64,000 bases of DNA from Saonia flava. GTDB lineage: Bacteria; Bacteroidota; Bacteroidia; Flavobacteriales; Flavobacteriaceae. The position numbers and the translations under genes were made by a program. The notes under the pieces are model-generated. The model ran no database searches and was not told the origin of the DNA. It saw nothing but the letters and a program-made list of their open reading frames with translations. The stretch is taken from positions 2,233,062 to 2,297,061 of the forward strand of contig NZ_JAATJJ010000001.1 in NCBI RefSeq assembly GCF_011927795.1, read 5' to 3'. This document shows positions 4,588-31,733 of this stretch, one piece after another (the first letter of the stretch is position 1; every line of letters begins with the position of its first letter).

Positions 4588-4593
4588 CTGGAT

Positions 4594-6093: not shown

Positions 6094-6157
6094 ACGTAGG
6101 ATATTTTATCCAATAACTTGGTAAGAAAAATATTAGATGTAATTTTACCGAGAAAAT

Positions 6158-10239: not shown

Positions 10240-10241
10240 AA

Positions 10242-10670: not shown

Positions 10671-11257
10671 CATCCCATAGCTTTGTCATAAACAGAAAGG
10701 CAAGAAGAATGGCTAATGGCCACAATTCTTTTCTTATTTTTTTTACTGGACTTTCAGGATCAGGGAAATCAACTATAGCAAATGCTTTGGAAGAAAAGCT
10801 TTATAGAAGTAATGTTAAAACATATATTCTTGATGGGGATAATATTCGCCTAGGAATAAATAGAGGCCTTACCTTTAGTCCAGAGGACAGGTCAGAGAAT
10901 AATCGTAGAATTGGGGAGATCTCCAAATTGTTTATTGATGCAGGAATGTTGGTTTTAGCCGCATTTGTGGCACCTTACAAGAAGGACCGTGAATTGATAA
11001 AAACTACAGTAGGAAAAGATAATTATATTGAGGTTTTTGTAAACACAAGTATAGAGGAGTGTGAAAGGCGTGATGTGAAAGGATTATACAAAAAAGCGAG
11101 ATTAGGAGAAATTAAAAATATGACAGGTGTTTCTGCGCCATACGAATCACCCATAAATCCAGATGTTGAGGTGACACACCATGATACTGTGAAAGAATCA
11201 GTTGAAATGATATATGAAAAAATCAAGTTAAAACTAGAAATTATAAATAATGAGTAA
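10655..11257 (+). CDS. cysC: Adenylyl-sulfate (APS) kinase
   Basis: Phosphorylates adenosine 5'-phosphosulfate to PAPS, the sulfuryl donor for sulfotransferases. The 200-residue product shows the P-loop GLSGSGKST (residues 32-40), the DGDNIR substrate motif (60-65), the NNRRIGEISK helix and the lid motif KGLYKKAR typical of APS kinases. It stands alone and is not fused to CysN as in many proteobacterial nodulation-type enzymes. It overlaps the DUF2061 gene upstream and cysD downstream (8 bp), so the operon is translationally coupled. It supplies PAPS presumably for the sulfotransferase encoded at 22292. Confidence 0.97.
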   Translation: MEKNITSHSFVINRKARRMANGHNSFLIFFTGLSGSGKSTIANALEEKLYRSNVKTYILDGDNIRLGINRGLTFSPEDRSENNRRIGEISKLFIDAGMLVLAAFVAPYKKDRELIKTTVGKDNYIEVFVNTSIEECERRDVKGLYKKARLGEIKNMTGVSAPYESPINPDVEVTHHDTVKESVEMIYEKIKLKLEIINNE

Positions 11258-12155: not shown

Positions 12156-12173
12156 TTACAAATTATAAGCATT

Positions 12174-13997: not shown

Positions 13998-14082
13998 TTT
14001 TAAGATTATGTGCAAATATTTCAAGTCCTTTCGTAGGGTCTTCTTTATTTTTTAAGGAGAATCTAACTAACTCGTGTACAAG

Positions 14083-15327
14083 ATGATTACTTCTAAAGTC
14101 AAGAGTTGTATAAATTGGGAAAATTTAATTACTCTTTTTGCCATTACTATCCCTCTTGGTAGAGGTTTGTTCAATTCCGCATTCATTCTATTAATCGGTT
14201 ATTGGATTTATAGGGTTTATAAAGGAGGGATTGTTTTTGGTAAAAGCGAAATCATTTTTTTGATTATAGTAAGCTCTTATTACCTCTATTCGATAGTAAG
14301 TTTATTATATACGGATAATATCGAATATGGATTAGACAAGATATATTCCCAATCCTATATACTGCTTTTTCCCTTATTTTTTTTATCCTTTAAGAAAGAA
14401 ATGGGAGAAAAAACCTATTTGAAAGCATTTAAAGGTTTTTTGCTCTCCTTAACTTTAGTAAGCGTTCTTTCTATCGGCAAACAGTTATATGGGGTTTTAT
14501 TGGGTAAGTATGGTTTGGAAGCTTTAACACAAAACAACATATCTACCTCGGTTGTAGACAATTATTTTTTAGGCCTTTCTTTACTAATTTCTTTTTGCGT
14601 AATTACTTATACCTACATCAAACTATTTAAACCCCATATTAAATTGTTTGGACTAAATGCTTTGGAGACAATAGTTATTTCCATTTTGACCATTACTTTG
14701 GTATTGCTCAATAGCAGAAACCTTATTTTTCTATCAGCTTTTAGTATTTGTGTGCTATTCTTTGCAAAATCGGTTCTGATAAAAAGGCCGTTCTTTTTTA
14801 TCAAAATATTTTTTGCAATGACAGCGGCAATATGCATAAACTATTGGGCTAACCCTTACTTTGGGGGAAAAATGAAAGAGGTGGTAAATTATAGCCAAGA
14901 AAACAGTAAAGATAAATATTGGGGAGGAATGAGACAGTCTATATGGGATTGCACTGTAAAGGTTATTAAAACGGATCCTGTTATAGGTGTCGGCGTTGGA
15001 GACCAAAAAGATCAACTTGAATTATGCTACAAGGTATATATGCATAATCGACTACTGGTCACGGACAATAATTTTAATGCCCATAATATATTCTTACAGG
15101 TTTTTCTGGAAATAGGAATCTTAGGGGTTATGATGTTTCTTCTTTCCTTTGCCTACATGATTAGGGCTGCAATTTTATCAAATAACATGTATTATGTAAT
15201 ATTTGTGGGAGTATTTATTTTAGCAGGCTTAACTGAGTCCTATTTTGAGAGAAATTTGACGATGGTTTTTTTTTCCTTCTATGGCTGTTTGTCTTTTTTT
15301 TCAAAAAGTAATTTAGGTCGGCCATGA
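14083..15327 (+). CDS. O-antigen ligase/polymerase family membrane protein (first of two)
   Basis: A 414-residue polytopic protein with about ten predicted membrane helices and the large periplasmic loop typical of Wzy/WaaL (Wzy_C) proteins; that loop (about 255-330) contains GVGVGDQKD and the HNIFLQVFLEIGILG segment characteristic of the family. I choose the ATG at 14083; a GTG at 14074 is possible. Such proteins either polymerise O-units (Wzy) or ligate glycan to a lipid acceptor (WaaL), and the sequence does not decide which. It stands alone between the terminator at 13958 and the phosphotransferase gene. A second protein of the family is encoded at 21020, so the two may split polymerase and ligase roles, or belong to two glycans. 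Confidence 0.8.
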   Translation: MITSKVKSCINWENLITLFAITIPLGRGLFNSAFILLIGYWIYRVYKGGIVFGKSEIIFLIIVSSYYLYSIVSLLYTDNIEYGLDKIYSQSYILLFPLFFLSFKKEMGEKTYLKAFKGFLLSLTLVSVLSIGKQLYGVLLGKYGLEALTQNNISTSVVDNYFLGLSLLISFCVITYTYIKLFKPHIKLFGLNALETIVISILTITLVLLNSRNLIFLSAFSICVLFFAKSVLIKRPFFFIKIFFAMTAAICINYWANPYFGGKMKEVVNYSQENSKDKYWGGMRQSIWDCTVKVIKTDPVIGVGVGDQKDQLELCYKVYMHNRLLVTDNNFNAHNIFLQVFLEIGILGVMMFLLSFAYMIRAAILSNNMYYVIFVGVFILAGLTESYFERNLTMVFFSFYGCLSFFSKSNLGRP

Positions 15328-15574: not shown

Positions 15575-16927
15575 ATGCCTTTTAACAGAAGACGACCATA
15601 TTCAAATCTGATTACACCTGTTTCATATATTATTGATTTGGCAATAATTAATGTTTTTGCATATTTATGGCCAATGCATCTTTATGAGCGATTACTTTTC
15701 CATTCATATGTTACTTTGGCATGGGTGATTCTTTCCATAAAAAGTGGGTTTTACGAAATGTACAGGTATACCAAAGCCCCTGTTATCCTGAAAAAATTAG
15801 CAACCCAATTCTTTTTTTTCTTTTTGATTTTGTATGCTTTTATAGGGCTTTTTAAACAGCCCAACATAAGTAGATTAAATCTTGGCCTTTTTTTCTTGTC
15901 AGTTTTTGTTTTGGTGTTCATATTTAAGTTTCTCAACTATTATTTTTTAATGACTTATAGGGCCAAAATAAAAGGAAATTTGAGATATGTAGTAGTCCTA
16001 GGGAGCAACAACAAAACAAATCAACTTATAAACATGTTTGAAAAACATGGAGAATATGGCTATAGAGTGGTCAAACAATTTTCCCCTAAGGATGATAAAT
16101 TTGAGTTTACGGATTTTTTTAAATATGTTGAGAAGCAAAACATTGACGAAATATATAGTTCAGTAAAGGAATTACAAAACAAAGAGATTGTAAAACTTAT
16201 TAGCTATGCTGATAATAACCTAATACAGCTCAAGTTTATTCCTGACAACAAGGAAATTTTCACCAAAGACTTGAAATTGGATTATTATGAGTATTTACCT
16301 ATTTTATCTCTTCGTGATATACCCTTAGATGATCCATTCAATAGGTTTGCCAAACGAGTTTTCGACTTGATGTTCTCCTCTCTAATAATTGTATTTCTTT
16401 TATCATGGCTTATGCCAATTATTGGACTACTGATAAAGCTTGACTCCAAAGGTCCTATTTACTTCAAACAAAATAGACCAGGGTTTAAGGAGGAGGGGTT
16501 CGGCTGTTATAAATTCAGGACAATGGCAATTAATGATGACACCGAAATGTCAGCTACTAGAAATGACCCTAGAGTTACCAAAATAGGAGCCTTTTTAAGA
16601 AGGACAAGTATGGATGAGTTCCCACAATTTATTAATGTTTTATTTGGACAAATGTCAGTGGTTGGCCCACGTCCACATTTATGGAGGCAAAATCAAGAAT
16701 ATAACACCACCATTCAAAAGTATATGCTAAGACATTATGTAAAACCAGGAATAACAGGTTTGGCACAAGCGAAAGGTTGTAGGGGAGAGATTGTCAAAAA
16801 TGAAGACATTGTAAATAGGACACGATATGATTTTTTTTACGTTGAAAACTGGTCCTTGCTACTGGATATTAAAATAATTTGGCAGACAGTATTGAATGTT
16901 ATCAAAGGCGAGGAAAAAGCCTATTGA
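15575..16927 (+). CDS. Polyprenyl-phosphate sugar-1-phosphate transferase (WcaJ/WbaP-like initiating enzyme)
   Basis: Starts glycan assembly by moving a sugar phosphate from a nucleotide sugar to undecaprenyl phosphate at the inner membrane. The 450-residue product has the long form: four N-terminal membrane helices within about 10-120, a Rossmann-like middle domain ([11 protein letters not shown] near 140) and a fifth hydrophobic segment near 265-290. It ends with the catalytic domain carrying [45 protein letters not shown] and KPGITGLAQ. All catalytic-domain motifs are intact. The sugar used (glucose, galactose or other) cannot be read from the sequence. It sits just before the UDP-glucuronate decarboxylase gene. 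Confidence 0.92.
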
Positions 16928-18208: not shown

Positions 18209-19480
18209 ATGAACATCTTGGTCTTGGGTTCTGGCGGACGCGAACATGCCATTTCTCTCAAAATTTCTCAAAGTCCTAAAACTTCTAAATTGATTGTCGC
18301 TCCTGGTAATGCGGGAACAGCTCAAATAGCCACTAATGTTGAGGTAGGAGTAAACGATTTTGAAGCCATCAAAAAATTGGTGATTAACAAAAGTATCCAC
18401 TTGGTGGTGGTAGGACCTGAAGACCCTTTGGTCAATGGAGTTCATGATTTTTTCTTGAATGATGATGAGTTAAAGTCTATTCCTGTAATTGGACCTGAGA
18501 AGGCCGCAGCTGAACTTGAGGGAAGCAAGGAATTTGCCAAAGAATTCATGATGCGCCACAACATTCCCACCGCAGCCTACGAAAGTTTTACTAGGGAGTC
18601 TCTGGAAAAAGGTTATGCTTTTTTGGAAAGCCTAAGTCCACCTTATGTTTTAAAAGCCGATGGTTTGGCTGCTGGAAAAGGAGTTTTGATTCTAAAAGAT
18701 TTACAGGAAGCAAAAGATGAACTCAAATCTATGTTGGTCGATTCCAAATTTGGAAACGCAAGTGCCACTGTGGTTATCGAGGAGTTCTTGAATGGTATCG
18801 AATTAAGCTGTTTTGTACTTACCGATGGAACCAACTACAAAATACTTCCAACAGCAAAAGATTACAAAAGAATTGGAGAGGGCGATACTGGACTCAATAC
18901 AGGGGGTATGGGCGCCATTTCACCTGTTCCTTTTGTGGATGAAGTCTTAATGGATAAGATTGAGCAGCAAATTGTAAAACCGACCGTAGATGGCCTTAAA
19001 AAAGATAATTTGCCATATGTGGGATTCATCTTCATTGGTTTGATTAAAGTTGGTGTAGAACCCAAAGTAATTGAATATAACGTTCGAATGGGTGATCCTG
19101 AGACCGAAGTAGTGATTCCTCGATTAAAAAGTGACTTGGTTGAGGTGCTTTCTGCAATGGCCAATGGAACGTTGGACCAAATAGACCTTCAAATTGACAA
19201 GCGTGCAGCAACGACCGTAATGGCAGTTTCTGGAGGTTATCCAGAAGCGTACGAAAAAGGAAAGGAAATCACAGGAACCGAAAACATTCAAGATTCCATC
19301 GTTTTCCATGCAGGCACCAAGCTTTCAGATGGTAAAGTAGTGACTAATGGAGGTCGTGTAATAGCAATCACCTCCTTTGGAAAGGACTTTAAGGAAGCAC
19401 TAAAAACATCCTATCAAAATATGGAAAAACTCCATTTTGATGGAATGTATTACCGTAAAGATTTAGGTTTTGATTTATAG
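18209..19480 (+). CDS. purD: Phosphoribosylamine--glycine ligase
   Basis: GAR synthetase, the second step of purine biosynthesis: phosphoribosylamine, glycine and ATP to GAR. The 423-residue ATP-grasp protein is complete: N-terminal VLGSGGREHA (4-13), VVVGPEDPL, IGPEKAAAELEGSKEFAKEFM, LKADGLAAGKGV, the metal-binding NVRMGDPE and the C-terminal HFDGMYYRKDLGFDL. It is the sole housekeeping gene inside a 20-kb glycan region, followed by a 388-bp gap and the flippase gene. A second, broken copy of its last ~70 codons lies 9.2 kb downstream at 28659. That copy meets the DUF6341-type gene tail to tail, the place where this purD would be expected in an uninterrupted locus. Confidence 0.98.
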   Translation: MNILVLGSGGREHAISLKISQSPKTSKLIVAPGNAGTAQIATNVEVGVNDFEAIKKLVINKSIHLVVVGPEDPLVNGVHDFFLNDDELKSIPVIGPEKAAAELEGSKEFAKEFMMRHNIPTAAYESFTRESLEKGYAFLESLSPPYVLKADGLAAGKGVLILKDLQEAKDELKSMLVDSKFGNASATVVIEEFLNGIELSCFVLTDGTNYKILPTAKDYKRIGEGDTGLNTGGMGAISPVPFVDEVLMDKIEQQIVKPTVDGLKKDNLPYVGFIFIGLIKVGVEPKVIEYNVRMGDPETEVVIPRLKSDLVEVLSAMANGTLDQIDLQIDKRAATTVMAVSGGYPEAYEKGKEITGTENIQDSIVFHAGTKLSDGKVVTNGGRVIAITSFGKDFKEALKTSYQNMEKLHFDGMYYRKDLGFDL

Positions 19481-19868
19481 AAAAATTAACCTAAAGCCAA
19501 GACAATCAGTACGGTATTTTAATCTCGAGTTATCTGCCCAAAGTCGGTTTGATTGTATTTATGTCTCGAAAAATTAGAAGGCCAAAAACAAAGAATGCTT
19601 TCCAGTCTTAAAAACTCTAAATTTTTACTTTTTTTTGATTAATAAATTGAGAAGCATCAAACATTTTGACACTAGATGAGGTACATCAAAGATTTATATC
19701 TTTGCAAGAGCAAACTTTTGGATTCAACCTTAAATAAGGTTAAACAACAGTCATTTTCAGATAAATTAATTATTGTGACACACAGAATTGCAAAAATATT
19801 TTCAAATTAAATATAAATCTCTTAGTAAAATGGTCATCAATAGTAAATTACACCTTCAGGCTTAAAAT
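19481..19868. other. Gap after purD: left junction of the second glycan module
   Basis: 388 bp without a gene. The only supportable element is the -7 motif at 19697-19704, which would start transcription of the flippase operon. I see no integrase attachment core or terminal inverted repeat. This is one edge of the segment bracketed by purD sequence. Confidence 0.65.
19697..19704 (+). promoter_or_regulatory. Candidate -7 promoter of the flippase-to-cupin operon
   Basis: TATCTTTG fits TAnnTTTG. It predicts a leader of about 160 nt before the flippase ATG at 19869. A TTTG at 19665-19668 is 28 bp upstream, longer than the usual spacer, so the -33 element is doubtful. Confidence 0.45.
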
Positions 19869-21023
19869 ATGAATTTTAAGAATATATCTTCCATATTACT
19901 TCGGCTATCATCCAAAGTAGGTAGTGCCTTGGTTATCTTTGCAATAAGTTTATTTTCTTCAAAGGATTTTTTTGGGGATTTTCTGATATATTGGGGCATT
20001 GTAAGGGTAATGAGCGTTCTTACATCTTTTGGTTTGGACAATGGGGTTTTTGCTAAAAACAACCCAAAAGATATTTCCGATGAGATTCGTTTCATACTTA
20101 TTTTTGGACATATACTGTTACTTGGAGGCGTCACAATGTCAATTAGCCCATTGACCACTCCCATACATAATATTATTGCATTGATATATGCGGCCATATT
20201 CACGTCCATAACCAGGGTGCTTTGTAGTTCAATGACCTACGATATGTCGTTTAGAAAGCCCATCTTGATTGAGGATGTAACAAAATCTATTTTACTTTTG
20301 GTTTCAGCACTGTTTTGCAGCGTGTATTACATTGACGGGATACCGATCGCCATCTTAGTTAGTTCTGCTATTCCATTTTTTTTGGCTTGGATAACCTTTG
20401 ATGGAACTATCAAAATCAGGCCAGAGACCCAGAGAATATTCGTGTCCCTTAAAAAAATATGGAAATCCAATATTACCTATGCATTTCAAGGTGTTGGAAC
20501 TGTTTACCTTTTTCAATTTGACAAGTTAAATGCGGCCTTATTCTTTGAAAAAGAAGTGGTGGCAAGTATTGGCGTTCATGGCCTTGTTTTTTTGGTATTT
20601 AGCCTAACCAAAGGCGCTATCAATTTTGTTGCCCTTCCAGCAATAAAAAAACATGGAGTAGCAGAATTTAAAAAACTTAGAAAAATTTCTTTTTTAATAT
20701 CTGTCTTTTATTGTTTGATGTATTTCCTTTTCGCTAAAAGTTTATTTGCGCTCTTATATGGGAAACAATATGATTTTGTTTCGGAATATGGAATAATATA
20801 TCTTATTGGCGGTGTACTGTTTCTGTCAGCTGGCCCGTTGGGACCATTGTTGGTAATCAACAAGAAAAAGAAGAAACTTTTTCTTATGGTTATGCTTCAA
20901 TTGAGTCTTGTAGTGATTTTAAGTCTATTTCAGTTTATAGATGCCAAGGAAATATATTATTTGATGACTGTTCCCGCTGTTTGGACAGTTCATTTTTTAT
21001 TTTCATACCTTAGGAAAAAATGA
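19869..21023 (+). CDS. Wzx-type oligosaccharide flippase (MOP superfamily)
   Basis: A 384-residue protein made of about eleven to twelve hydrophobic helices with short charged loops, the pattern of Wzx/RfbX flippases that move lipid-linked oligosaccharide across the inner membrane. Membrane helices run from about residue 12 to the C terminus. It is slightly shorter than typical Wzx (about 410-480 residues), perhaps lacking one helix pair. It heads the second glycan operon, and its stop overlaps the start of the polymerase gene by 4 bp. A paralogous flippase is encoded at 50465, outside the glycan region. Confidence 0.8.
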   Translation: MNFKNISSILLRLSSKVGSALVIFAISLFSSKDFFGDFLIYWGIVRVMSVLTSFGLDNGVFAKNNPKDISDEIRFILIFGHILLLGGVTMSISPLTTPIHNIIALIYAAIFTSITRVLCSSMTYDMSFRKPILIEDVTKSILLLVSALFCSVYYIDGIPIAILVSSAIPFFLAWITFDGTIKIRPETQRIFVSLKKIWKSNITYAFQGVGTVYLFQFDKLNAALFFEKEVVASIGVHGLVFLVFSLTKGAINFVALPAIKKHGVAEFKKLRKISFLISVFYCLMYFLFAKSLFALLYGKQYDFVSEYGIIYLIGGVLFLSAGPLGPLLVINKKKKKLFLMVMLQLSLVVILSLFQFIDAKEIYYLMTVPAVWTVHFLFSYLRKK

Positions 21024-22234
21024 ACTCCAAGACAACTAATTATATTCTCGTTTTATTGTTGTTGTTGGCTGTATATGGAAAAGGCCTTTTTCAAGACAGC
21101 ATACATGTACATGATGTAGATCAAGCGAGGTCTGGCATCATAAAAATCGGTAATATTTTTTCATTGGGATGTCTATTATCCATTTTTTTGTTAAAAGGAA
21201 AGGTCTGGGGTATAACATTCAAATTCAATCGGGAAAACTGGCTAATGAATGGTTTTTATGCCTTTATGTTTTTAAGCGCAATTATCTCCCTAAACCCTAT
21301 TATCAGTGTTTCAAAGTTTTTTCAACTACTTATTCTTATATATGCTGCTAGAACAGTTTTTAATCATGTAGGAAACGCACAGAATTTTCTGATCTCCTAT
21401 AGAAATATTGTTCTTGTTTTTAGTGTTAGCTGTCTTTTATTTCCAGCTTCACAGGTGGGGTCTTTCATAGATCAAAACCGGATTGCGGGAAATTTATTAA
21501 TGTATATCCCACCTAATGAAATGGCCGAGTTAGTACTTTTCTCACTGGCTTTTTCTGTTTTTTTATTTTATAGGAGACAACAAACTTTTATAGATGTCAT
21601 TAATGTTATCGTTGGTATTCTAGTAATTTTTGGAACAAAATCGCGATTTGCATATTTGATTGTTGCATTAATAGTCTTTTTGTACCTGCTCACTAACATT
21701 AAGAGATTTGCAATTGTTTTTTTTGCTGGTTTTGTCATTATTCTTTATGCGGTCTTTCAAACCGATTTTATTGAGGTTTACATTTTGCGAGATGGGGATA
21801 CTTCAAAGCTTCTCGAATTGACCGGGCGTGTAAAATATTGGGCCTTTGCAATAGAGAACATCGATTGGAAGTCATTGCTCATGGGTCACGGTTTTTACTT
21901 TGGATCAAGGTTTTATTTACCCACGATTGACCCTCATTTTGCTTATAAGAGCAATCTGGATAATACCTATCTCGAGATTTTATTCAACTCAGGCATAATT
22001 TCATTGATTCTGTTTATTCTTGTATTGGCCAAAATGTTCCATATTTCGTTGAAAAGAGGATATGATTCAATGCTTTTTATTTCATTCATCATGATTATTT
22101 CCGTAAAAAGCTTGATTGGCCCATCAATTGTAAAAGAGACTATTTCGCTGGTTTTTTTCTTTTTAATCTATCATTTTTGCAGACCTTTGGTTAAATATAG
22201 AATCAAACCGGTTTCTGGATATAATCAAGGGTAA
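21020..22234 (+). CDS. O-antigen polymerase (Wzy)-like membrane protein (second of two)
   Basis: A 404-residue protein with about ten to twelve membrane helices. It shows the Wzy_C-type features: a helix ending FGTKSRFAYL (about residues 206-215, comparable to the GSRSG/A motif) and a large extracytoplasmic loop (about 250-320) with the LMGHGFYFGSRF and NTYLEILFNSGIISLI segments. Directly after the flippase gene with a 4-bp overlap, so a Wzx/Wzy pair for the same repeat unit is the natural reading. Sequence identity between Wzy proteins is low, so the call rests on topology, motif positions and context. Confidence 0.8.
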   Translation: MNSKTTNYILVLLLLLAVYGKGLFQDSIHVHDVDQARSGIIKIGNIFSLGCLLSIFLLKGKVWGITFKFNRENWLMNGFYAFMFLSAIISLNPIISVSKFFQLLILIYAARTVFNHVGNAQNFLISYRNIVLVFSVSCLLFPASQVGSFIDQNRIAGNLLMYIPPNEMAELVLFSLAFSVFLFYRRQQTFIDVINVIVGILVIFGTKSRFAYLIVALIVFLYLLTNIKRFAIVFFAGFVIILYAVFQTDFIEVYILRDGDTSKLLELTGRVKYWAFAIENIDWKSLLMGHGFYFGSRFYLPTIDPHFAYKSNLDNTYLEILFNSGIISLILFILVLAKMFHISLKRGYDSMLFISFIMIISVKSLIGPSIVKETISLVFFFLIYHFCRPLVKYRIKPVSGYNQG

Positions 22235-22291
22235 GACTAGTATTAATTTATTGAGTAGTTTTACAAATTATTCATGGACACCTAAAATCAT

Positions 22292-23164
22292 ATGGACCTA
22301 GATTTTCTGTTAATTGGAGCGCAGAAGTGCGCCACTACTTGGATTTACCACTGCCTTAATGAGCACCCTGAGCTTTATGTGGGAGGAGGAAAAAATGAAA
22401 CCTACTATTTTGGAGGCAAAACCTTTGATCAAAAAGGTCTTGATTGGTTCGAAGGTCTTTTTTCGGATGCTTCCACCTACCAAAAGCTTGGCAGTGCTTC
22501 TGTAGATTATATTTGGGACGTTGCATCCATAGAGCTGGCTCGCAAGCAATATCCTGACATTAAAATCATAGCTGCGCTTCGTAACCCTGTAGAGCGTACG
22601 ATATCAGCTTTTTTTTGGCTAATGAGGAAAAACATTATCGAGGATGGGTCGCTAGAAGATGGTATTAGAAAGGCAATTGATGACTACAAATCTGGTTCTG
22701 ACACTATTTATTCAGAATTGATCAGACGAAGTCTATACACTGATGCAATAATTGAACTTCATGAAAATTTTGAAAAAGATAACATTAGATTAATTTTGTT
22801 CGATGACATTCAAAATACCCCTAAAACTGTTTTGCATGGTATTTATTCTTTTTTAGGTGTTTCCCCGGGCTATATGCCATCCTCCTTAAAAAGAAAACCA
22901 AAGGGCAACAGCTATTCCTCGACACTTGTTTATCTAGAAAGAAAAATGCCCGTCAATAAATTTGCCACTAAGGTATTGAACGGTATTAGTGAGCTCATCA
23001 AGATATCGTCCAAAACCAAGAGCCCTCAATTAAACTCTGGGCTGACCCAAGAACTTTCGGATATATATAAGGGGCCTTTTGGCAGACTATACAATTGGCT
23101 GGAAGAAAATGGGTCGAATGATAATATGGCTATTAAAAAAGCAAAAAAAAGTTGGAATTTGTAA
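22292..23164 (+). CDS. PAPS-dependent sulfotransferase
   Basis: A 290-residue soluble sulfotransferase. The 5'-phosphosulfate-binding loop is GAQKCATTWIY (residues 9-19) and the 3'-phosphate-binding motif is ALRNPVERTISAFFW (95-109, with R97 and S105). Both are intact, so it should bind PAPS and transfer sulfate to a sugar hydroxyl. The domain resembles the heparan/carbohydrate sulfotransferase group. It lies inside the second glycan operon, and the PAPS-producing genes (cysC, cysD, cysN) and PAP-removing cysQ are in the same region 9-12 kb upstream. The acceptor is presumably the lipid-linked repeat unit or its nucleotide-sugar-derived residue in the cytoplasm; this is inference. Confidence 0.9.
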   Translation: MDLDFLLIGAQKCATTWIYHCLNEHPELYVGGGKNETYYFGGKTFDQKGLDWFEGLFSDASTYQKLGSASVDYIWDVASIELARKQYPDIKIIAALRNPVERTISAFFWLMRKNIIEDGSLEDGIRKAIDDYKSGSDTIYSELIRRSLYTDAIIELHENFEKDNIRLILFDDIQNTPKTVLHGIYSFLGVSPGYMPSSLKRKPKGNSYSSTLVYLERKMPVNKFATKVLNGISELIKISSKTKSPQLNSGLTQELSDIYKGPFGRLYNWLEENGSNDNMAIKKAKKSWNL

Positions 23165-24282
23165 TGGGAAGAAAAAATACATTTATTATTGGTCACTACG
23201 GAGGAGATAATTTCGGCGATGAATTTATGCTGGAAGCATTGCTTGAATATCTTGATACTGTCAAAATAATTGGTAAAATTTTTATTGTATGTAAAAAAAG
23301 ACATAGTTCGGCAACTAAAGCTACTTTTGTCTCTCCAAGTTTCTTAAGCATACTCAAAGTCTTTTTCCAGACCAAAATATTAATTCTGGGCGGTGGTACG
23401 CATTTCCACGATGACTATCACAAAAAACGCCTGCAAAGGCACTATTTATACCTCACCAAGATATTGGCTATATCCTTATTATATAGGTTAAGTTTCAAAA
23501 AAGTGTATTATCTCGGGGTAGGATACGCTCCATTGGATTCTCCCCTAATCAAGAAATATACAAAGCTATCCTTGTTGCTTACCAACCACATTACCGTAAG
23601 AGACAAAATTTCATTAAAAAACCTGAACAACTTGTCAAGAAAACCATGTTCTTCGAGGGAACACCTTACGTTTGATTTGGCGTCTCTTCATAAAGAAGTG
23701 GGGCATATAAAGACAAAAGATGAAACACTAGTAGGTATTTCGCTTACTTCTTTCAGCTATTCATCCAACCCTAATGAAGATACTTTATGGGATGATTACA
23801 TAATTCCTGAAATAGGGGCTATCTACAGAAATACAACTATATCCATCCGAATCTTTGTATTTAGAGGGGGACCTAAAGAATCTGATATCCCATTAAGTAA
23901 AAAATTGCAAGAACATTTATATAAAATTGACCCAGTTAGGATAACAACTTATGAGCATACAGATGACACTGAGAAATTTGTAGCTCCCTTGGTCGAATGC
24001 GAGTATTTTATTGCAACAAGATACCACTCTGCAGTAATTGCTTATTTGGTAGGGTGTAAGATGCTGATAATACCATATCATCAAAAACTAATTGATGTCG
24101 TGGACATGATAGACCTTGACATGCATGCCGTATTTGATTTAAGGGAACCTGAAACCTTCGCCTTTAAGTTCAAGGAGTTGTTGGCCAATGATAAAAGGTA
24201 TATTCCTAGAGTACCCCCATTGAAAAACAAGGCCCTTACTTTGGACATTATGAATAGCATTTTTAATAAAAAAGAACAATAG
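23164..24282 (+). CDS. Polysaccharide pyruvyl transferase family protein
   Basis: A 372-residue protein of the PS_pyruv_trans/CsaB group, which adds ketal-linked pyruvate from PEP to sugars of cell-surface glycans. Family features are the N-terminal IIGHYGGDNFGDEFML (glycine-rich with N-x-GD), the LILGGGTHFHDDYHKK loop, and the C-terminal RYHSAVIAYLVGCKMLIIPYHQK with the catalytic-type RYH. I start at the ATG at 23164, which overlaps the sulfotransferase stop (TAATG). A TTG four codons earlier is less likely. Pyruvylation would add negative charge beside sulfate. Confidence 0.85.
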   Translation: MGRKNTFIIGHYGGDNFGDEFMLEALLEYLDTVKIIGKIFIVCKKRHSSATKATFVSPSFLSILKVFFQTKILILGGGTHFHDDYHKKRLQRHYLYLTKILAISLLYRLSFKKVYYLGVGYAPLDSPLIKKYTKLSLLLTNHITVRDKISLKNLNNLSRKPCSSREHLTFDLASLHKEVGHIKTKDETLVGISLTSFSYSSNPNEDTLWDDYIIPEIGAIYRNTTISIRIFVFRGGPKESDIPLSKKLQEHLYKIDPVRITTYEHTDDTEKFVAPLVECEYFIATRYHSAVIAYLVGCKMLIIPYHQKLIDVVDMIDLDMHAVFDLREPETFAFKFKELLANDKRYIPRVPPLKNKALTLDIMNSIFNKKEQ

Positions 24283-24370
24283 TACAAGGTCGTGTTTTTA
24301 TGAGAAACAGGCATTCGACCAAGGCATGTTGTGAATCCATTTATTAGGCCTGTGTGCTACCCACATAGAA

Positions 24371-24405
24371 TTATCATGATTCTGAATGCATCTGAATCAT
24401 AATAA
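24371..24405. repeat. Imperfect inverted repeat in the pyruvyltransferase/GT4 gap
   Basis: Two 15-nt arms (24371-24385 and 24391-24405) match at 13 of 15 positions around a 5-nt loop (ATGCA). It lies 6 bp upstream of a -7 motif, so it could be a terminator-like hairpin or an operator. The rest of the 283-bp gap (24283-24565) shows nothing else. Confidence 0.5.
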
Positions 24406-24410
24406 TTCCA

Positions 24411-24418
24411 TATTTTTG
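24411..24418 (+). promoter_or_regulatory. Candidate -7 element upstream of the GT4 gene
   Basis: TATTTTTG matches TAnnTTTG in the only long gap inside the second glycan operon. It suggests that the GT4-to-cupin genes can be transcribed separately, with a leader of about 140 nt. Confidence 0.45.
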
Positions 24419-24565
24419 CCTCTTGGGTTTGAGAGGCATAGCTTTTCAGGAAAAATGCCAGATGAAATCAAAAGCCAACACTTATTTAGCCTTCAAAAAA
24501 ATGAACTCCGTTGACTAGAGATGTCGGTGCTATATCAGTCTTTGTATTCCAATAACAATAAGTAA

Positions 24566-25657
24566 ATGAACTGCATTCATATATTATATACTAGAACTTT
24601 TGGAGGCCCTCATAACCAAGTTGTGCAATTGGCAATAAAAAAGGGCAAAAGACGACATATTATCATAGCCCCCAAAGGCATTTCTAAATTCGAGGCCATT
24701 CACAACAACAATGATATAATCTATTGTCCCTTGCGCCTATGGAGGCCTACCAAGAGAAATATTCCAACCGTTTTGTTTTTTCCGCTCATTTTGATTTTAG
24801 ATACAATAAGGCTCTCTTTCAAGCTCAAAAGCCACCTTAATTCCAATACGGCAGTCATAAATTATGGCTCGTTATATATCACTGGTCTTGTTTTTTCCAA
24901 GACACATGGATTAAAAAGTATTTCTGAAATACCAGGGTTATTTACACCAAAGCCATTCAGAAAGATAATTGGAAACACGCACAAGTTCCTTGCCGATAAA
25001 ATCCTTCTTACCGGCAAGTCTGTTGCAGCCGCATATGGCATTGAAATTAATGATTTCAACAAAGTTTTTTTTCCTCCGATACGAAAAGAAGTCATTGCTG
25101 AAAAAAGTAAAAAAAAGGGTGTTCTTACCATTGGAACCCTTGGAAATAGAAATTGGCAAAAGGCTCACGAAAGATGTGTGGAAATTGCACATTCACTGAA
25201 CAACAACAATGTTGATTTCAATTGGATAATTCAGGGGAGAAACTCCAAAGGACAAGAAAACTATTATCAGCACGATGTAATGGACAAAGCCATTGATTTA
25301 AAACTTAATATGGTTAACTTTGTGTCTAATATGTCCCCGTCAGAACTATTTTCGCAAATAGACCTTTTTGTGCTCACGAGTAAAGTTGAAGGGGTCCCTA
25401 CCGTAGTTCTCGAGTCGTGTGTAAATGGAGTGCACACTATTAGTTTATCTGTGGGGGCTGTAGAAGAACTCACACCGGTTTTTGATAATCTAACTGTATT
25501 GCCGGACACAGATAGCATAGCAAATTTCATATTAGAAAATAGACAGGAGATTATTGATGCCAGAAAAATGGTTTGCGATTACTCAGAAAAGCAGAAAAAG
25601 CTGGAGGAGGTAAATACTTTATTTTTTAAACCACATTATGAAGCGCTTGATTTTTAA
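24566..25657 (+). CDS. Glycosyltransferase family 4-like protein
   Basis: A 363-residue GT-B-fold transferase. The N-terminal domain begins IHILYTRTFGGPHNQV, with the glycine-rich loop after strand 1. The C-terminal domain shows TIGTLGNRNWQKAH (near 190-203) and the nucleotide-sugar site SKVEGVPTVVLESCVNG (about 270-286), where E-x7-E spacing of GT4 enzymes is present (EGVPTVVLE). It should add one sugar to the lipid-linked repeat unit; donor and linkage cannot be read. The 3' end overlaps the deacetylase gene by 20 bp. Confidence 0.83.
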   Translation: MNCIHILYTRTFGGPHNQVVQLAIKKGKRRHIIIAPKGISKFEAIHNNNDIIYCPLRLWRPTKRNIPTVLFFPLILILDTIRLSFKLKSHLNSNTAVINYGSLYITGLVFSKTHGLKSISEIPGLFTPKPFRKIIGNTHKFLADKILLTGKSVAAAYGIEINDFNKVFFPPIRKEVIAEKSKKKGVLTIGTLGNRNWQKAHERCVEIAHSLNNNNVDFNWIIQGRNSKGQENYYQHDVMDKAIDLKLNMVNFVSNMSPSELFSQIDLFVLTSKVEGVPTVVLESCVNGVHTISLSVGAVEELTPVFDNLTVLPDTDSIANFILENRQEIIDARKMVCDYSEKQKKLEEVNTLFFKPHYEALDF

Positions 25658-26405
25658 TTTCAATAGAGTTTTTTTTGATAAAATACTGAAAGATGGGGTT
25701 TATCCTCAGACCATACACATATTTCATCATTATTTCAAAGACGAAAACGCTTATCTAAAAGAATTTATACGATTTGCCCAAAATAAAGGATATGTGATAA
25801 GAGGCTATAATTATAATCAAAAAACCGGGGAAAAAGTAGTATATCTTAGTTTTGATGATAACTATGAAACATGGTATGAAATGGCTCAAATGTTAAAGGA
25901 AGAAGGTGCCACCTGCACTTTTTTCATCAATTTTGCGCCAAACTTGATGAGTGATGGTCTTATCAACGCCTATTATAATTCTCTAGGCTTGATAAATGGC
26001 AAACCAATTGGGCTTGATAAAATTTCAGACCTAATTCAACAAGGATTTGATTTTGGGAATCATGGACTTTCTCATGTTACTTTTAGTGATTTGCAATTGT
26101 CCCATGTGAAAACTGACCTTGACCTAAACCGAAACTTTTTTCAGCGGCATTTCGAAGCAAAATTGACAAATGTGGCTTTCCCGTATGGTTCAATGAGATA
26201 TTTCAAAAAAGAATGGATAGATGAAATTAGCGAGGAATTTGGCACTATATACGCAGGTCATCCCCTGAGCCAGACCGAAAATAATGACAAATTTGTTTTC
26301 AGGTCTCCGTTATACATCTCCGAAAGCTTTGAATTCAATTTAAAAATACAAAGGATTTCAAACATCAAGCCAAGCCTAACTTTTGGTAAAAGCTTGATTG
26401 GATGA
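25638..26405 (+). CDS. Polysaccharide deacetylase (NodB-like) family protein
   Basis: A 255-residue NodB-homology protein. The catalytic motif 1 appears as YLSFDDN (about 69-75, normally TFDDG), motif 2 as GNHGLSHVTFSDL (H-x-x-x-H metal ligands, about 151-163) and motif 3 as FPYG. The changed last residue of motif 1 is within family variation; the two aspartates are kept. No signal peptide is seen, so action on a cytoplasmic lipid-linked sugar is more likely than on an exported polymer. It would remove N- or O-acetyl groups. It overlaps the GT4 gene by 20 bp and precedes the WecG-like gene by 29 bp. Confidence 0.85.
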   Translation: MKRLIFNFNRVFFDKILKDGVYPQTIHIFHHYFKDENAYLKEFIRFAQNKGYVIRGYNYNQKTGEKVVYLSFDDNYETWYEMAQMLKEEGATCTFFINFAPNLMSDGLINAYYNSLGLINGKPIGLDKISDLIQQGFDFGNHGLSHVTFSDLQLSHVKTDLDLNRNFFQRHFEAKLTNVAFPYGSMRYFKKEWIDEISEEFGTIYAGHPLSQTENNDKFVFRSPLYISESFEFNLKIQRISNIKPSLTFGKSLIG

Positions 26406-26434
26406 GCAATGATTAGCATGAAAAACAACAAATA

Positions 26435-27202
26435 GTGAAGCAGGAAGTAAAAATTTTAGGAATAAATATATTTGCAATAAACATTGAAAAGGCGGTAGAC
26501 CTACTTTTACATACCAACAATGGCTCTTCTCAATCAAGGTGTGTGAGTGCCACAGGGGCACATGGCTTGGTATATTCCAAAAGAAATGAAGGATTTAGGC
26601 AAATCCTTCATTCATTCTTTCTCAACCTTCCTGATGGCATGCCCTCTGCTTGGATAGGCAGATTAAAAGGAGCAAAAAAAATGAAGCGATGCTATGGTCC
26701 AGATTTCTTTAAAGAAACCATGATTGCATCAGCAAGCACAAATACGACCCATTTTCTTTGTGGAGGAAAAGAAGGTGTAGCAGACAAACTAAAAAAAGTC
26801 TGCGAAAACCAATTTGAAGCAACAATTTCAGGAACATATTGTCCTCCCTTCCTCGATGTGTACGATTATGATTATCCGGCCATTGCAAAAACCATCAATG
26901 AAACAGAAACTAACATTGTGTGGATAGGTCTGAGCACTCCGAAGCAAGAGGTTTTTGCATGCAATCTATCCAAATATACTAAGGTCGATTATATATGCTG
27001 TGTTGGTGCGGCATTTGATTTTCATATTGGCAATGTAAAACAAGCGCCTAGTTGGATACAAAAATTAGGTATGGAATGGTTCTTCAGATTGCTGATGGAG
27101 CCGAAAAGATTATGGAAAAGATATTTTGATATTGTTCCTTTTTTTATTTATTATAACTTTGTTGAATTAATCAATGGAAACTTTTTAAAAAAAAAAACAT
27201 GA
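26435..27202 (+). CDS. WecG/TagA/CpsF family glycosyltransferase (GT26)
   Basis: A 255-residue protein with the GT26 signature: ILGINIFAINIEKAVDLL at the N terminus, VSATGAHGLVYSKRNEGF, LPDGMPSAWIGR (NxPDG/M-type motif around residue 66), WIGLSTPKQEVFACN (VxLGxPKQE equivalent) and CVGAAFDFHIGNVKQAPSWIQKLGMEWFFRLLMEPKRLWKRY split over the last quarter. The family transfers ManNAc or ManNAcA to a lipid-linked GlcNAc or related acceptor. The start is a GTG at 26435, and the 3' end overlaps the epimerase gene by 4 bp. All family motifs are present. Confidence 0.92.
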   Translation: MKQEVKILGINIFAINIEKAVDLLLHTNNGSSQSRCVSATGAHGLVYSKRNEGFRQILHSFFLNLPDGMPSAWIGRLKGAKKMKRCYGPDFFKETMIASASTNTTHFLCGGKEGVADKLKKVCENQFEATISGTYCPPFLDVYDYDYPAIAKTINETETNIVWIGLSTPKQEVFACNLSKYTKVDYICCVGAAFDFHIGNVKQAPSWIQKLGMEWFFRLLMEPKRLWKRYFDIVPFFIYYNFVELINGNFLKKKT

Positions 27203-28173
27203 AAAAAGCTTTAGTATGCGGATCTGGAGGATTTATCGGGGGACATCTTGTAAACCGCTTGAAAAAAGAAGGGTATTGGGTTCGAGGAGTTGATTTAAAA
27301 GAAAACGAGTATGGAAACAACAATGCCGACGAGTTTATCATAGGAGACCTTAGAAATATTGATGTTGTCAAACAAGTGGTGACAGAAGATCTTGATGAAG
27401 TATACCAACTTGCCGCCGACATGGGTGGCGCAGGGTTTGTGTTTACTGGTGATAATGATTCCGATATTATGCATAACTCAGCATTATGTAACCTTAATGT
27501 ATTGGAAGAAGTAAAAAATAAAGGGGTAAAGAAAGTTTTTTATTCCTCATCAGCTTGTATGTACCCCGAGTATAACCAAATGGATCCTGAGAATCCCAAA
27601 TGTTCTGAAGATTCTGCATATCCAGCCGCTCCAGATAGCGAATATGGCTGGGAAAAGCTCTTTAGCGAACGGTTATATCTTACATATCATAGAAACCATG
27701 GAATAGAAGTAAGAGTCGCTCGTTTTCATAATATTTTTGGCCCCCAAGGTACTTGGGACGGGGGTAGAGAAAAGGCTCCTGCCGCTCTTTGCAGAAAAGT
27801 GGCAGAAACAGAGGACAATGGATATATCGAAGTTTGGGGAGATGGTAAGCAAACCCGTTCATTTTTATTGGTCGACGAATGTGTTGAAGGAATAAGAAGG
27901 CTTATGGAGTCTGATTTTATAGGGCCTGTAAATATTGGTTCGGAAGAAATGATATCCATTAATGACTATGCAAAAATGATTATTGACATCTCTGGAAAGG
28001 ACATTTCCATTAAAAATATTGAAGGCCCAACAGGTGTGGCTGGTAGAAACTCTGATAATGCATTGATTAGGGAAAAGCTAGACTGGGAACCATCAATGAG
28101 CCTAAGGGAAAGTACCGAAATCACATTCAAGTGGATTTCTAAACAGTTAAAAAGCAGGAACCTTGTCAACTAA
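27199..28173 (+). CDS. GDP-mannose 3,5-epimerase-like SDR protein
   Basis: A 324-residue extended SDR strikingly like plant GDP-mannose 3,5-epimerase. It has GSGGFIGGH (8-16), LAADMGGAGFV (71-81), SSACMYPEY (117-125, with C120 matching the catalytic cysteine), YGWEK (Y149, K153), RFHNIFGPQGTWDGGREKAPAA (split: 175-196), WGDGKQTRSFLLVDECVEG and GRNSDNALIREKLDWEP. The plant enzyme converts GDP-mannose to GDP-L-galactose and GDP-L-gulose. Retention of the cysteine and of the GTWxGGREKAPAA loop supports the same chemistry, giving L-galactose for the glycan. It overlaps its neighbours on both sides by 4 and 11 bp, so it belongs to the operon. Confidence 0.88.
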   Translation: MKKALVCGSGGFIGGHLVNRLKKEGYWVRGVDLKENEYGNNNADEFIIGDLRNIDVVKQVVTEDLDEVYQLAADMGGAGFVFTGDNDSDIMHNSALCNLNVLEEVKNKGVKKVFYSSSACMYPEYNQMDPENPKCSEDSAYPAAPDSEYGWEKLFSERLYLTYHRNHGIEVRVARFHNIFGPQGTWDGGREKAPAALCRKVAETEDNGYIEVWGDGKQTRSFLLVDECVEGIRRLMESDFIGPVNIGSEEMISINDYAKMIIDISGKDISIKNIEGPTGVAGRNSDNALIREKLDWEPSMSLRESTEITFKWISKQLKSRNLVN

Positions 28174-28516
28174 GGTTAAGTTATTTGAATACATACAAAA
28201 CATTGAAGGTGAGTCCACGGCTCACCTTTCTGGGCTAAAAAAGGTTTTTTTAAAGAATACTGATACCAATTCCAAGCTAACTCAATTTGCCCATGGTTTG
28301 TTTATGCCAGGAGAAGTTTGCGAACTTCATGCACATCCAACAATGGATGAACTTTTTTATTTCATCAACGGAACAGGGATTTACAAAGTTAATGACGAAG
28401 AAATAAAGTTAAAACCGGGAACTTTTATTAGAATACCTGCCAAATCTCAACATGAGTTGGTTAATAACGGAAAAAATAACTTGGAGTTTGTATATTTTGG
28501 AATAGCGCTGGATTAA
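28163..28516 (+). CDS. Small cupin-domain protein
   Basis: A 117-residue single-domain cupin, TTG start inside the end of the epimerase gene. Cupin motif 1 is CELHAHPTMDELFYFINGTG (about residues 53-72, two histidines and a glutamate as metal ligands) and motif 2 is GTFIRIPAKSQHELVN with the third histidine. It probably binds a metal ion. Small cupins at the end of glycan operons may isomerise or epimerise nucleotide sugars or act as binding/regulatory proteins; the sequence alone does not choose. It is the last intact gene before the purD scar. Confidence 0.75.
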   Translation: MSTKVKLFEYIQNIEGESTAHLSGLKKVFLKNTDTNSKLTQFAHGLFMPGEVCELHAHPTMDELFYFINGTGIYKVNDEEIKLKPGTFIRIPAKSQHELVNNGKNNLEFVYFGIALD

Positions 28517-28658
28517 ATTTCGCAACCTTTTTTAATTACATATAGTATAGGCATACAGGTTTTAAGCGGAATTATGACCATAGAGCTATCAATAATTAAA
28601 CTGAAACCTTTATTAATTATCTTAAGGGCTGTCCTAAAACATATAAAAAAAAGTAAAC
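28517..28658. other. Right junction of the second glycan module
   Basis: 142 bp with no gene, between the cupin stop and the point where purD similarity begins. It contains GGGCTGTCCTAAAA at 28626-28639, which is reminiscent of insertion-sequence ends but has no visible partner. Stops occur in all frames. Confidence 0.5.
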
Positions 28659-28868
28659 ACCGGAACCGAAAACATTAAAGATTCAATCATTTTCCATACA
28701 GGCACCAAACTGTCAGAATGAAAAGTAGTCACTAATGGGGGTAGGGTCATGGCAATCACTTCTTATGGAGGCAATTTTAAAGAAGCATTGCAAAAATCAT
28801 ATCAAAATATGAAAAACTTACATTTTGATGGAATGTACTATCGTAAAGATATTGGATTTGACCTATAG
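28659..28868 (+). pseudogene. Broken 3' fragment of purD
   Basis: The translation TGTENIKDSIIFHTGTKL, then an in-frame stop (TGA at 28722) in place of the Gly codon, continuing to HFDGMYYRKDIGFDL and a TAG stop, lines up without gaps with the last ~70 codons of purD at 18209. By hand count about 41 of 210 bases differ (about 80% identity). Most changes are synonymous or conservative, as expected of two alleles that diverged while both were functional. The stop codon overlaps the last bases of the convergent DUF6341-type gene (ends 28863), so this looks like the original chromosomal end of purD, left behind when the upstream part was displaced. It is not a functional gene. Confidence 0.92.
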
Positions 28869-29084
28869 GTAAGAGTGGGAAGAAATACTTTTATCCTCTT
28901 CACCATTGTCACTAAATGTTTTAAGCTGTAGCATCCAATAAACCATGGCTACTGCACCTATCAGCATAAAAATCCAGTTGATGGAGTTTGAAGCCCACCA
29001 GCTTTCCATAAAACGGAACATATCATAGGGAGCAAAAAGAACATTGACAAATAAATCCTCTATACCTTCAAAAAATGACTTCAT
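28863..29084 (-). CDS. DUF6341-like small membrane protein
   Basis: A 73-residue protein. It has an N-terminal amphipathic segment (MKSFFEGIEDLFVNVLFAPY), one membrane helix (about 35-53, NWIFMLIGAVAMVYWMLQL) and an acidic/serine-rich tail. It resembles the DUF6341 proteins of Flavobacteriia; the name is from memory and no function is known to me. It converges on the purD remnant with a 6-bp overlap of stop codons, and diverges from the DUF6427-like gene. It has its own -7 element. Confidence 0.75.
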   Translation of the reverse strand: MKSFFEGIEDLFVNVLFAPYDMFRFMESWWASNSINWIFMLIGAVAMVYWMLQLKTFSDNGEEDKSISSHSYL

Positions 29085-29123: not shown

Positions 29124-30059
29124 ATGATTTCAAGCATTTTTGGAAAAACAAAGCCTATAAGTTTCATTATTGTGCTTTCCTTTCTGTTCCTTTTTTATTG
29201 GGCTACCTCTTTTTTATTGTTTTCAAAGAACATTTTAATTGGAACAATTTCCTTGGAACTTTTTTATCTAGTGGCATTATTGCTCAGTATTTTTGTTGTG
29301 AATTTTATAGTAAGTAGGAATAAGTTAACAGGTGCAAATACATACACCATACTTATATTCACGTTGTTTATTTTGGTTTTTCCTAGGGTAATGGCAAATG
29401 GGAAAGCAATATTATCGGGACTATTTATCCTTATTTCCATTAGAAGGTTGATCAGTATTAAGACGCTGAACAATGTAAAGAAGAAAATTTTCGACGCTAC
29501 AAGTTGGGTGCTAATATCCAGCTTGTTTTATGATTGGGCCCTGCTTTATTTGGTCTTGGTCTTTATTACTATTTATTTCTATCAGCCAAAAAAAATTAGA
29601 AACTGGCTGGTCCCTATTGTGGCTTTTTTTGCAATATCAATTATTATATACAGTGTTTTATTGATTACTGGTAATATTGAATTTTTAGAAAACCATTATT
29701 TGTTTTCCTTTAAGATTGATGATGGGATTTTTCAAAATTGGAGAAACCACACGTTGGTCTTTTTATATATTTTGAGTGTGGCTTTTTCTATTTTCTTTTC
29801 ATTTGTAAAATTGGGAAAAACAGGGCTGGGAAGGGTAATTTCTCTTAGATTGATACTTATTTCCCTCATAGTCGGACTAGTGGTGTTTGTTTTAAAAAAT
29901 TTATCAGAACCTGTACTTATTTTTACATTCTTTCCTGCTGCGGTATTTGTAACCAATTATATAGAATCCATAAAGCGACCAAATATCAAGGAAACGGTTT
30001 TAATATGCTCTGTTGTTATCTCTATCGGCATTGCCATATCTGGCTTTTTCATAAAATAA
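29124..30059 (+). CDS. DUF6427-like polytopic membrane protein
   Basis: A 311-residue integral membrane protein with about nine or ten helices and few charged loops; no catalytic motif is visible. The size, helix pattern and position between a DUF6341-like gene and a DUF4254 gene fit the DUF6427 family of Flavobacteriia (name from memory, function unknown). It is followed after 29 bp by the DUF4254 gene, which has its own promoter candidate. It belongs to the core locus that originally adjoined purD. Confidence 0.72.
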   Translation: MISSIFGKTKPISFIIVLSFLFLFYWATSFLLFSKNILIGTISLELFYLVALLLSIFVVNFIVSRNKLTGANTYTILIFTLFILVFPRVMANGKAILSGLFILISIRRLISIKTLNNVKKKIFDATSWVLISSLFYDWALLYLVLVFITIYFYQPKKIRNWLVPIVAFFAISIIIYSVLLITGNIEFLENHYLFSFKIDDGIFQNWRNHTLVFLYILSVAFSIFFSFVKLGKTGLGRVISLRLILISLIVGLVVFVLKNLSEPVLIFTFFPAAVFVTNYIESIKRPNIKETVLICSVVISIGIAISGFFIK

Positions 30060-30065
30060 ATACGG

Positions 30066-30073
30066 TATCTTTG
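30066..30073 (+). promoter_or_regulatory. Candidate -7 promoter of the DUF4254 gene
   Basis: TATCTTTG matches TAnnTTTG and ends 15 nt before the ATG at 30089, predicting a short leader. Confidence 0.5.
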
Positions 30074-30088
30074 TAAAAAATTCTATGT

Positions 30089-30694
30089 ATGTTTAGCGAG
30101 TATGCCTATTCAATTTTTTTGAAAAGTATAAAACAGTATCATATTGAGGATACCGTAAATCAAGTTTTTGAAAACCCCTATGAGAAGGAAGACATAGCAC
30201 ATTTGTTGTATAGAAAAAACTGGATAGATACTGTGCAATGGCATTATGAGGACATTATTAGAGACCCAAACATTAATCCGAATGAAGCTTTGACTTTAAA
30301 GCGAAAAATTGATGCCAGTAACCAAGATAGGACGGATTTAGTAGAATATATTGACAATTATTTTCTTAATAAGTACGAATCGGTTAAAATTAATGAAGAC
30401 GCCACTATTAATACTGAAAGCCCGGCTTGGGCAATAGACAGGCTATCCATTCTGGCACTTAAAATCTATCATATGCAGGAGGAGGCAACCCGAATTGACG
30501 CTTCCCCTGAACACTTGGATAAATGTCAACTTAAACTTGATATTTTATTGGAACAAAAGAAGGACCTTTGTAGCGCCATAGATCAACTTATAGGAGACAT
30601 TGAAGCAGGTAATAAGTATATGAAGGTCTATAGGCAAATGAAGATGTACAATGATGAAGAGTTAAACCCGATTCTTCGTGGGCAAAAGCAGTAA
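30089..30694 (+). CDS. DUF4254 domain-containing protein
   Basis: A 201-residue soluble, mostly helical protein with conserved NWIDTVQWHYEDIIRDP (about 44-60), the family hallmark, followed by RKIDASNQDRTDLVEYID and SPAWAIDRLSILALKIYHM. It binds no obvious cofactor and its function is unknown. It overlaps the glycosyltransferase family 9 gene by 17 bp, a pairing that recurs in Bacteroidota and suggests a role in LPS core assembly, by association only. Confidence 0.85.
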   Translation: MFSEYAYSIFLKSIKQYHIEDTVNQVFENPYEKEDIAHLLYRKNWIDTVQWHYEDIIRDPNINPNEALTLKRKIDASNQDRTDLVEYIDNYFLNKYESVKINEDATINTESPAWAIDRLSILALKIYHMQEEATRIDASPEHLDKCQLKLDILLEQKKDLCSAIDQLIGDIEAGNKYMKVYRQMKMYNDEELNPILRGQKQ

Positions 30695-31733
30695 AAAGAA
30701 AGAACTATCACATTTACTGGTGATACGCCTCTCGGCCATGGGCGATGTTGCCATGACTGTTCCCGTACTTTATGCATTGACTCGCCAATATCCTGAGTTA
30801 AAAATAACAGTCCTTACTAGGGTTTTTTTTAAACCCATGTTTTCCCAGCTAAGAAATGTATCCATATTTGAAGCTGATGTTAATGGAAAACACAAAGGAA
30901 TTCATGGGTTGTGGAAACTTTTTAAAGAGCTAAAAACGCTTAAAATTGATGGAGTGGCTGATCTTCACAATGTTTTGCGAAGTAATATCCTTAAAAAGTT
31001 TTTTAAGAGGGATGACATTCCTTTTGTACAAATAGATAAAGGTAGAAAAGAAAAAAAGCGACTTATATCTTCAAAAAATAAAATCTTTAAACCTTTAAAA
31101 TCTACCTATGAAAGATATGCGGATGTCTTTAAAGAATTAGGTTTTCCACTGGAGTTCAAAAATAAGGAGTTCTTAACCAAAGAAGCACTTTCTAATAAGG
31201 TTCAAAAAATAATTGAACCCGAAACCAAAAAATGGATAGGAATAGCACCCTTTGCGGCATTTGAAGGAAAGATGTACCCACTTCATTTTATGGAAAAGGT
31301 GATAGAAAAATTAAATAATACCGAAAAGTATAAAATATTATTATTTGGCGGCGGGGGCTTAGAAACAGAGAAACTTAACCAACTTTCCAAAAAGTATTCA
31401 AACGTAATTTCCATTGCCGGTCTACTTTCCTTTGAGGACGAACTTTTGGTTATTTCTAATTTGGATGTAATGGTGGCAATGGATAGTGGCAATGGGCACT
31501 TATCGGCAATGTATGGAGTGCCAACAATAACCTTATGGGGTGTTACACATCCTTTTGCCGGTTTTTCACCTTTTGGTCAAGATATTAATAATTCAATTTT
31601 GGCGGACAGGGATAAATTTCCATTCATTCCAACATCTGTCTATGGAAATAAATTTCCAAAAGGATATGAAAAGGTAATGGAAACTATTCAACCAGAACAA
31701 GTCGTTCAAAAAATACTTCAGCTGTTGAATTAG
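30678..31733 (+). CDS. Glycosyltransferase family 9 (ADP-heptose:LPS heptosyltransferase-like)
   Basis: A 351-residue GT-B enzyme of the WaaC/WaaF family. It has the N-terminal HLLVIRLSAMGDVAMTVPVL (residues 11-30), an acceptor-side DLHNVLRS, and a C-terminal donor domain with GIAPFAAFEGKMYP, LFGGGG, and the MDSGNGHLSAMYGVPTITLWG motif split near 272-292. It should transfer heptose or a related sugar to lipid A core in the cytoplasm-facing leaflet. The GTG start lies inside the DUF4254 gene. The donor specificity of Bacteroidota members varies. Confidence 0.9.
   Translation: MGKSSKKKELSHLLVIRLSAMGDVAMTVPVLYALTRQYPELKITVLTRVFFKPMFSQLRNVSIFEADVNGKHKGIHGLWKLFKELKTLKIDGVADLHNVLRSNILKKFFKRDDIPFVQIDKGRKEKKRLISSKNKIFKPLKSTYERYADVFKELGFPLEFKNKEFLTKEALSNKVQKIIEPETKKWIGIAPFAAFEGKMYPLHFMEKVIEKLNNTEKYKILLFGGGGLETEKLNQLSKKYSNVISIAGLLSFEDELLVISNLDVMVAMDSGNGHLSAMYGVPTITLWGVTHPFAGFSPFGQDINNSILADRDKFPFIPTSVYGNKFPKGYEKVMETIQPEQVVQKILQLLN

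Follow-up and report, generated by a model that had tools for sequence, protein, structure and literature searches.

An apparently foreign purD and the remnant of a second copy flank a glycan gene module in Saonia flava

The window, meaning the whole stretch of DNA that was analysed, comprises 64,000 nt of Saonia flava (NZ_JAATJJ010000001.1, forward-strand positions 2,233,062-2,297,061). Its features around purD are listed below by window position, where purD_A denotes the intact window purD, purD' a second copy or stump, and UGD a UDP-glucuronate decarboxylase-like epimerase. The comparison set contained one genome per species, and G001 was the only genus-mate in it.

3709..7846, + strand: left anchor, consisting of an M23 peptidase, a GH3-family protein and a DUF6909 gene; native, collinear with G001 at 82-89% aa identity (Pfam)
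7847..8905, + strand: 352-aa gene, the first past the left junction; without Pfam match
9433..13427, + strand: inositol-phosphatase family/CysQ-like, DUF2061, APS kinase, CysD-like and CysN-like genes (sulfate activation; Pfam)
14074..15327, + strand: O-antigen ligase (Wzy_C; Pfam); 76% aa identity to G433, 70% to G366
15575..16927, + strand: initiating sugar transferase (Bac_transf; Pfam); G433 closest, 83% aa
17024..18010, + strand: UGD; 96-97% aa to Allomuricauda L032/L033 (tree)
18209..19480, + strand: purD_A, intact, foreign, of Allomuricauda type (genome search, tree)
19481..19868, + strand: spacer between purD and module, probable promoter region; the 230 bp nearest the module homologous to G433
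19869..28516, + strand: nine-gene glycan module (Pfam); collinear in G366, G103 and G433
28649..28868, + strand: purD' stump, the last 73 codons with an in-frame TGA, of Allomuricauda type
28869..29084, - strand: DUF6341 gene; foreign-to-native switch inside it, near 29,000, where identity to G001 goes up from 65-75% to 91-97%
29124..31733, + strand: right anchor, consisting of DUF6427, DUF4254 and GT9; native, grouping with G001 (support 1.0)

The 423-aa product of purD_A is complete, with GARS_N, GARS_A and GARS_C domains, and a whole-genome search returned purD_A as the sole intact purD. One further match was obtained (E 5e-32), which covers residues 352-423 and contains one TGA; it lies 9.2 kb downstream of purD_A. 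A repeat search of the window, run without guidance, gave exactly the pair 19261-19480 and 28649-28868 (220 nt, 80%). As the first-pass annotation had described, this stump aligns without gaps to the end of purD, contains an in-frame TGA and is about 80% identical: over 73 codons, 175/219 nt matched purD_A, the next-best window position reaching 89/219, and over the interval 28659-28868 the value was 169/210 nt. Its tail-to-tail arrangement with DUF6341 was likewise borne out, the two genes being convergent and directly adjoining. Homology of the stump to the left of 28649 was looked for and was not significant.

The differences between the two copies had been called mostly synonymous, a description that did not hold: of the changed codons, 20 were synonymous and 16 non-synonymous (TGA included). 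Over the stump codons, dN was 0.12 between purD_A and the stump, compared with 0.00 and 0.02 between purD_A and its nearest Allomuricauda relatives, L033 and L032, respectively, which indicates that constraint on the stump has been lost. Judged by its codons, the stump is a decaying pseudogene.

The nine ORFs of the module encode flippase-like, Wzy/ligase, sulfotransferase, pyruvyltransferase, GT1, deacetylase, WecG, epimerase and cupin proteins. The flippase-like protein had no Pfam match and its role was assigned by inference. Together with the sulfate-activation genes, this cargo would suggest a sulfated, pyruvylated surface polysaccharide. The module was found collinear as a unit in G366 (80-83% nt identity), G103 (69-72%) and G433 (81-82%). 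The gene order in G366 and G103 is ligase, module, transferase, UGD, purD and DUF6341, with a single purD and, in G103, one additional ligase-like gene ahead of the transferase. The window locus runs from ligase through transferase, UGD, purD, module and stump to DUF6341. The module is an older travelling unit, since two other genera, represented by G366 and G103, carry it upstream of purD; this position disagrees with the earlier proposal that the transferred unit was purD plus nine genes.

In the purD tree, purD_A falls inside the Allomuricauda/Flagellimonas sequences, beside L032 and L033 (94% aa), and the window UGD also groups with L032/L033. The right-flank proteins DUF6427, DUF4254, GT9 and rSAM placed the window genome as sister to G001 (support 1.0), both grouping with Maribacter, Arenibacter and Zobellia and separately from Allomuricauda/Flagellimonas; the purD of G001 falls in this wider Maribacter/Arenibacter/Zobellia group as well. 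Since purD_A lies in Allomuricauda while the flank genes put the genome beside G001, a foreign origin of the intact purD from an Allomuricauda-type source is well supported by these trees, in line with the first-pass annotation.

The putative foreign DNA extends well beyond purD. Genes up to 7846 are collinear with G001 at 71-89% aa identity and are closer to it than to G366 or G433. The gene at 7847-8905 shows 27% aa identity to its G001 counterpart versus 63% to that of G433, which places the left junction at about 7846/7847; to the right of this junction, the G001 locus carries different glycan genes. The departure from G001 at 7847 is a further point on which a unit of purD plus nine genes falls short. 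On the right side, identity to G001 was 62-81% from the stump into the 3' half of DUF6341 and reached 91-97% from about 29,000. Informative sites between 28869 and about 29,000 were mixed, with a majority Allomuricauda-like, and past about 29,005 the window was almost entirely G001-like. The foreign tract would thus span from about 7,850 to about 29,000, approximately 21 kb from another genus.

Within the tract, the transferase is nearest to G433, and UGD and purD_A are nearest to L032/L033. Given this mosaic, a single event with a single donor is unlikely. A genome with exactly these tract alleles was looked for as donor, and none was found. The tract showed no recognisable integrase, transposase or tRNA, as the first-pass annotation had also noted for integrases; three larger ORFs, at 7847, 13445 and 19869, had no Pfam match. 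The sulfate-activation set (9433-13427) lies inside the tract and pairs with the module sulfotransferase. At the corresponding position, G433 has just part of an APS-kinase-like ORF.

The surroundings of purD were compared in loci picked by similarity to the window purD, a choice that samples its relatives rather than covering the family evenly. DUF6341 directly followed purD in 94/101 assessable loci, with a median gap of 4 bp (tblastn coordinates), so the adjacency expected by the first-pass annotation was confirmed. A UGD-like or initiating-transferase-like gene was located upstream of purD in 78 of the 80 loci with enough upstream sequence. Twelve close-species pairs, some of which share species and are therefore not independent, were also compared. 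In these pairs the block of similarity containing purD started 22-38 bp before purD, at UGD or at the transferase; the glycan genes beyond the block were mostly unrelated, and the right side was usually conserved. The exception was the pair L036/L037, in which 91% of the left side was still similar. By these comparisons, purD is the right edge of the glycan locus, at which many relatives swap such regions, and the earlier view of purD as a boundary for glycan-gene swapping was upheld to this extent.

A TAnnTTTG motif, mostly in the form TATTTTTG, was present in the conserved stretch before purD (window 18180-18208) in all loci examined. It resembles the Bacteroidetes -7 promoter element. Because this motif lies in the stretch that survives the swaps, purD probably keeps its own promoter irrespective of the upstream genes.

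Other arrangements of the right side were also observed. Two Arenibacter loci carry an opposite-strand glycan cluster after purD instead of DUF6341 (L069, 11469-18949; L075, 11517-18729). Where purD and DUF6341 are separated in Arenibacter and Galbibacter, no purD stump was found within about 1.5 kb of DUF6341. In Mangrovimonas (L109, 12567-18312), unrelated genes lie between DUF6427 and DUF4254, and the right anchor can thus take insertions too. In a literature search, no report was found of purD lying next to O-antigen or polysaccharide genes in Flavobacteria.

The window order together with a second purD was found in one genome, G433, among 73 Allomuricauda-genus genomes, 72 of which gave a match. 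The second purD of G433 lacks codons 1-32; the remainder, which starts at codon 33 and ends slightly past the stop, matches the first copy perfectly over 1,177 bp. A close relative, L062, has a single purD with DUF6341 directly after it; identity between G433 and L062 was 94.7% rightward from purD', 93% for the first purD and only 75% for UGD. The purD alleles of the window and of G433 are different Allomuricauda types. The first-pass annotation had set its reading against the two window segments being recent paralogues; in the window they are not, but a perfect purD repeat does flank the module in G433.

The window and G433 share homologous ligase/transferase and purD/module spacers (z 13.8 and 8.5, respectively), and on this homology the rearranged gene order probably arose once. 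For the spacer between cupin and purD', homology between window and G433 was not significant. The spacer to the right of purD gave a weak match to the ligase-module spacer of G366 (score 41, the best of 300 shuffles reaching 42), which was set aside. Among 400 sampled family genomes, a second C-terminal purD match was present in only four. The second matches of G040, G083 and G155 were rejected as distant paralogues (23-45% identity). In G468 and G481, both of the Allomuricauda genus, the assemblies are fragmented and the second matches sit on short contigs of their own.

The history that we consider probable is import of a purD-module-purD' layout like that of G433 by homologous recombination, with later decay of the redundant purD'. 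The donor, presumably Allomuricauda-like, would already have carried this layout. Its bracket may have originated when the module shifted from upstream of transferase-UGD-purD to downstream of purD, either through duplication followed by loss or through integration via purD homology. The tract would have entered through homologous recombination of the RecA type; the crossovers would lie in conserved flanking DNA, at about 7,846 on the left and inside DUF6341 on the right. The incoming tract would have fully replaced the resident purD, which appears to have been replaced whole, since native DNA starts only near 29,000, inside DUF6341. The unneeded purD' would then have shrunk by decay to 219 bp. 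The identity of the donor, the number of events and the loss of the rest of purD' after arrival rather than before are inferred steps of this history.

The first-pass annotation had instead proposed that a foreign purD and module displaced the resident purD, leaving its 3' end as the stump. Although the stump lies tail to tail with DUF6341, as purD does in relatives, and its right half resembles G001 and Allomuricauda to about the same degree, this origin is unlikely. At sites separating Allomuricauda from G001, the stump was Allomuricauda-like in 21 cases and G001-like in 4, compared with 129 to 155 in the native flank genes (native-like states 4/25 vs 155/284, p=2e-4). On the purD tree, a position as sister to G001 was rejected (AU p=0.009), and a position in the G001+Maribacter clade was marginally disfavoured (AU p=0.07); with its 73 codons the stump is placed by sequence within the Allomuricauda group, its position being resolved to group level. 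The neighbouring 3' half of DUF6341 does not resemble G001 either, and G433 shows that the layout can include a second purD. Duplication of the foreign purD in place, on either side of the module and after its arrival, with subsequent decay of one copy, would agree with purD_A being the best match of the stump (79.9%), with a sister position to purD_A not being rejected (AU p=0.60) and with the existence of a perfect purD repeat in G433. It is nevertheless quite improbable in view of dS between stump and purD_A (0.86), which is not below the values between purD_A and L033/L032 (0.55-0.87), and of the two spacers common to the window and G433, which indicate a single, older origin for the layout.

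Two further explanations involve a mobile unit. Site-specific insertion of an integrase-bearing element at the 3' end of purD, restoring the gene and displacing its old end, would produce the observed anatomy of intact gene, cargo and displaced 3' end, but is extremely improbable. Besides the missing integrase, transposase and tRNA, no short identical core was found, the repeat being 80% over 220 nt; the G433 copy spans 391 codons; and foreign DNA reaches far upstream of purD. In the other explanation, purD-module-purD' is a working integrase-free cassette, excised and inserted by RecA via the purD copies. Recombination of the direct copies would free a circle with a 5'-truncated purD and leave a perfect purD behind; one crossover would suffice for the circle to enter any purD, and one intact purD would be restored each time. 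The 1,177-bp repeat of G433, at 100% identity, would represent the active version, and the window stump one that has decayed and is frozen. The one observation pointing to such a cassette is the perfect repeat of G433, and we regard it as rather unlikely.

These comparisons name a housekeeping gene, purD, as a conserved edge for the trade of surface-sugar genes in a major marine bacterial family; such genes control how cells meet phages and grazers. The foreign purD, the decayed second copy and a relative with an undecayed bracket would form a physical record of one trade between genera, and purD_A is predicted to be in sole charge of its purine-synthesis step. Movement of glycan loci without mobility genes becomes open to a simple bench test.

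Replacement flexible genomic islands include loci for O-chains and exopolysaccharides that are exchanged through homologous recombination (PMC4033161). The locus described here resembles them, with the same place and function but different content among relatives, conserved flanks that could pair for exchange, and no recognised integrase or transposase, and homologous recombination in conserved flanks would explain the window tract in the same way. Unlike in those islands, the exchange in the window would have occurred between genera, the flanking purD moved with the tract, and a decayed second copy was left as a mark; purD was not named as an anchor in the literature searched. An integrase gene with short identical attachment cores, which would define a site-specific integrative element, was not found in the window. 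In Flavobacterium psychrophilum, of the same family, the O-antigen polysaccharide locus also varies by recombination, but there by gene substitution within the species, and purD is unmentioned (PMC5601056). In the cps locus of Neisseria meningitidis, galE1 and a 5'-truncated galE2 bracket capsule genes, and one segment has been traced to horizontal transfer (PMC6619384). The window and G433 similarly carry glycan genes flanked by one intact and one 5'-truncated copy of the same gene, and one segment of the bracket would come from horizontal transfer and not from local duplication. In contrast to galE, a sugar gene whose copies enclose a segment that inverts, the bracket of the window is formed by a purine-synthesis gene in direct orientation, the second copy of which is a pseudogene.
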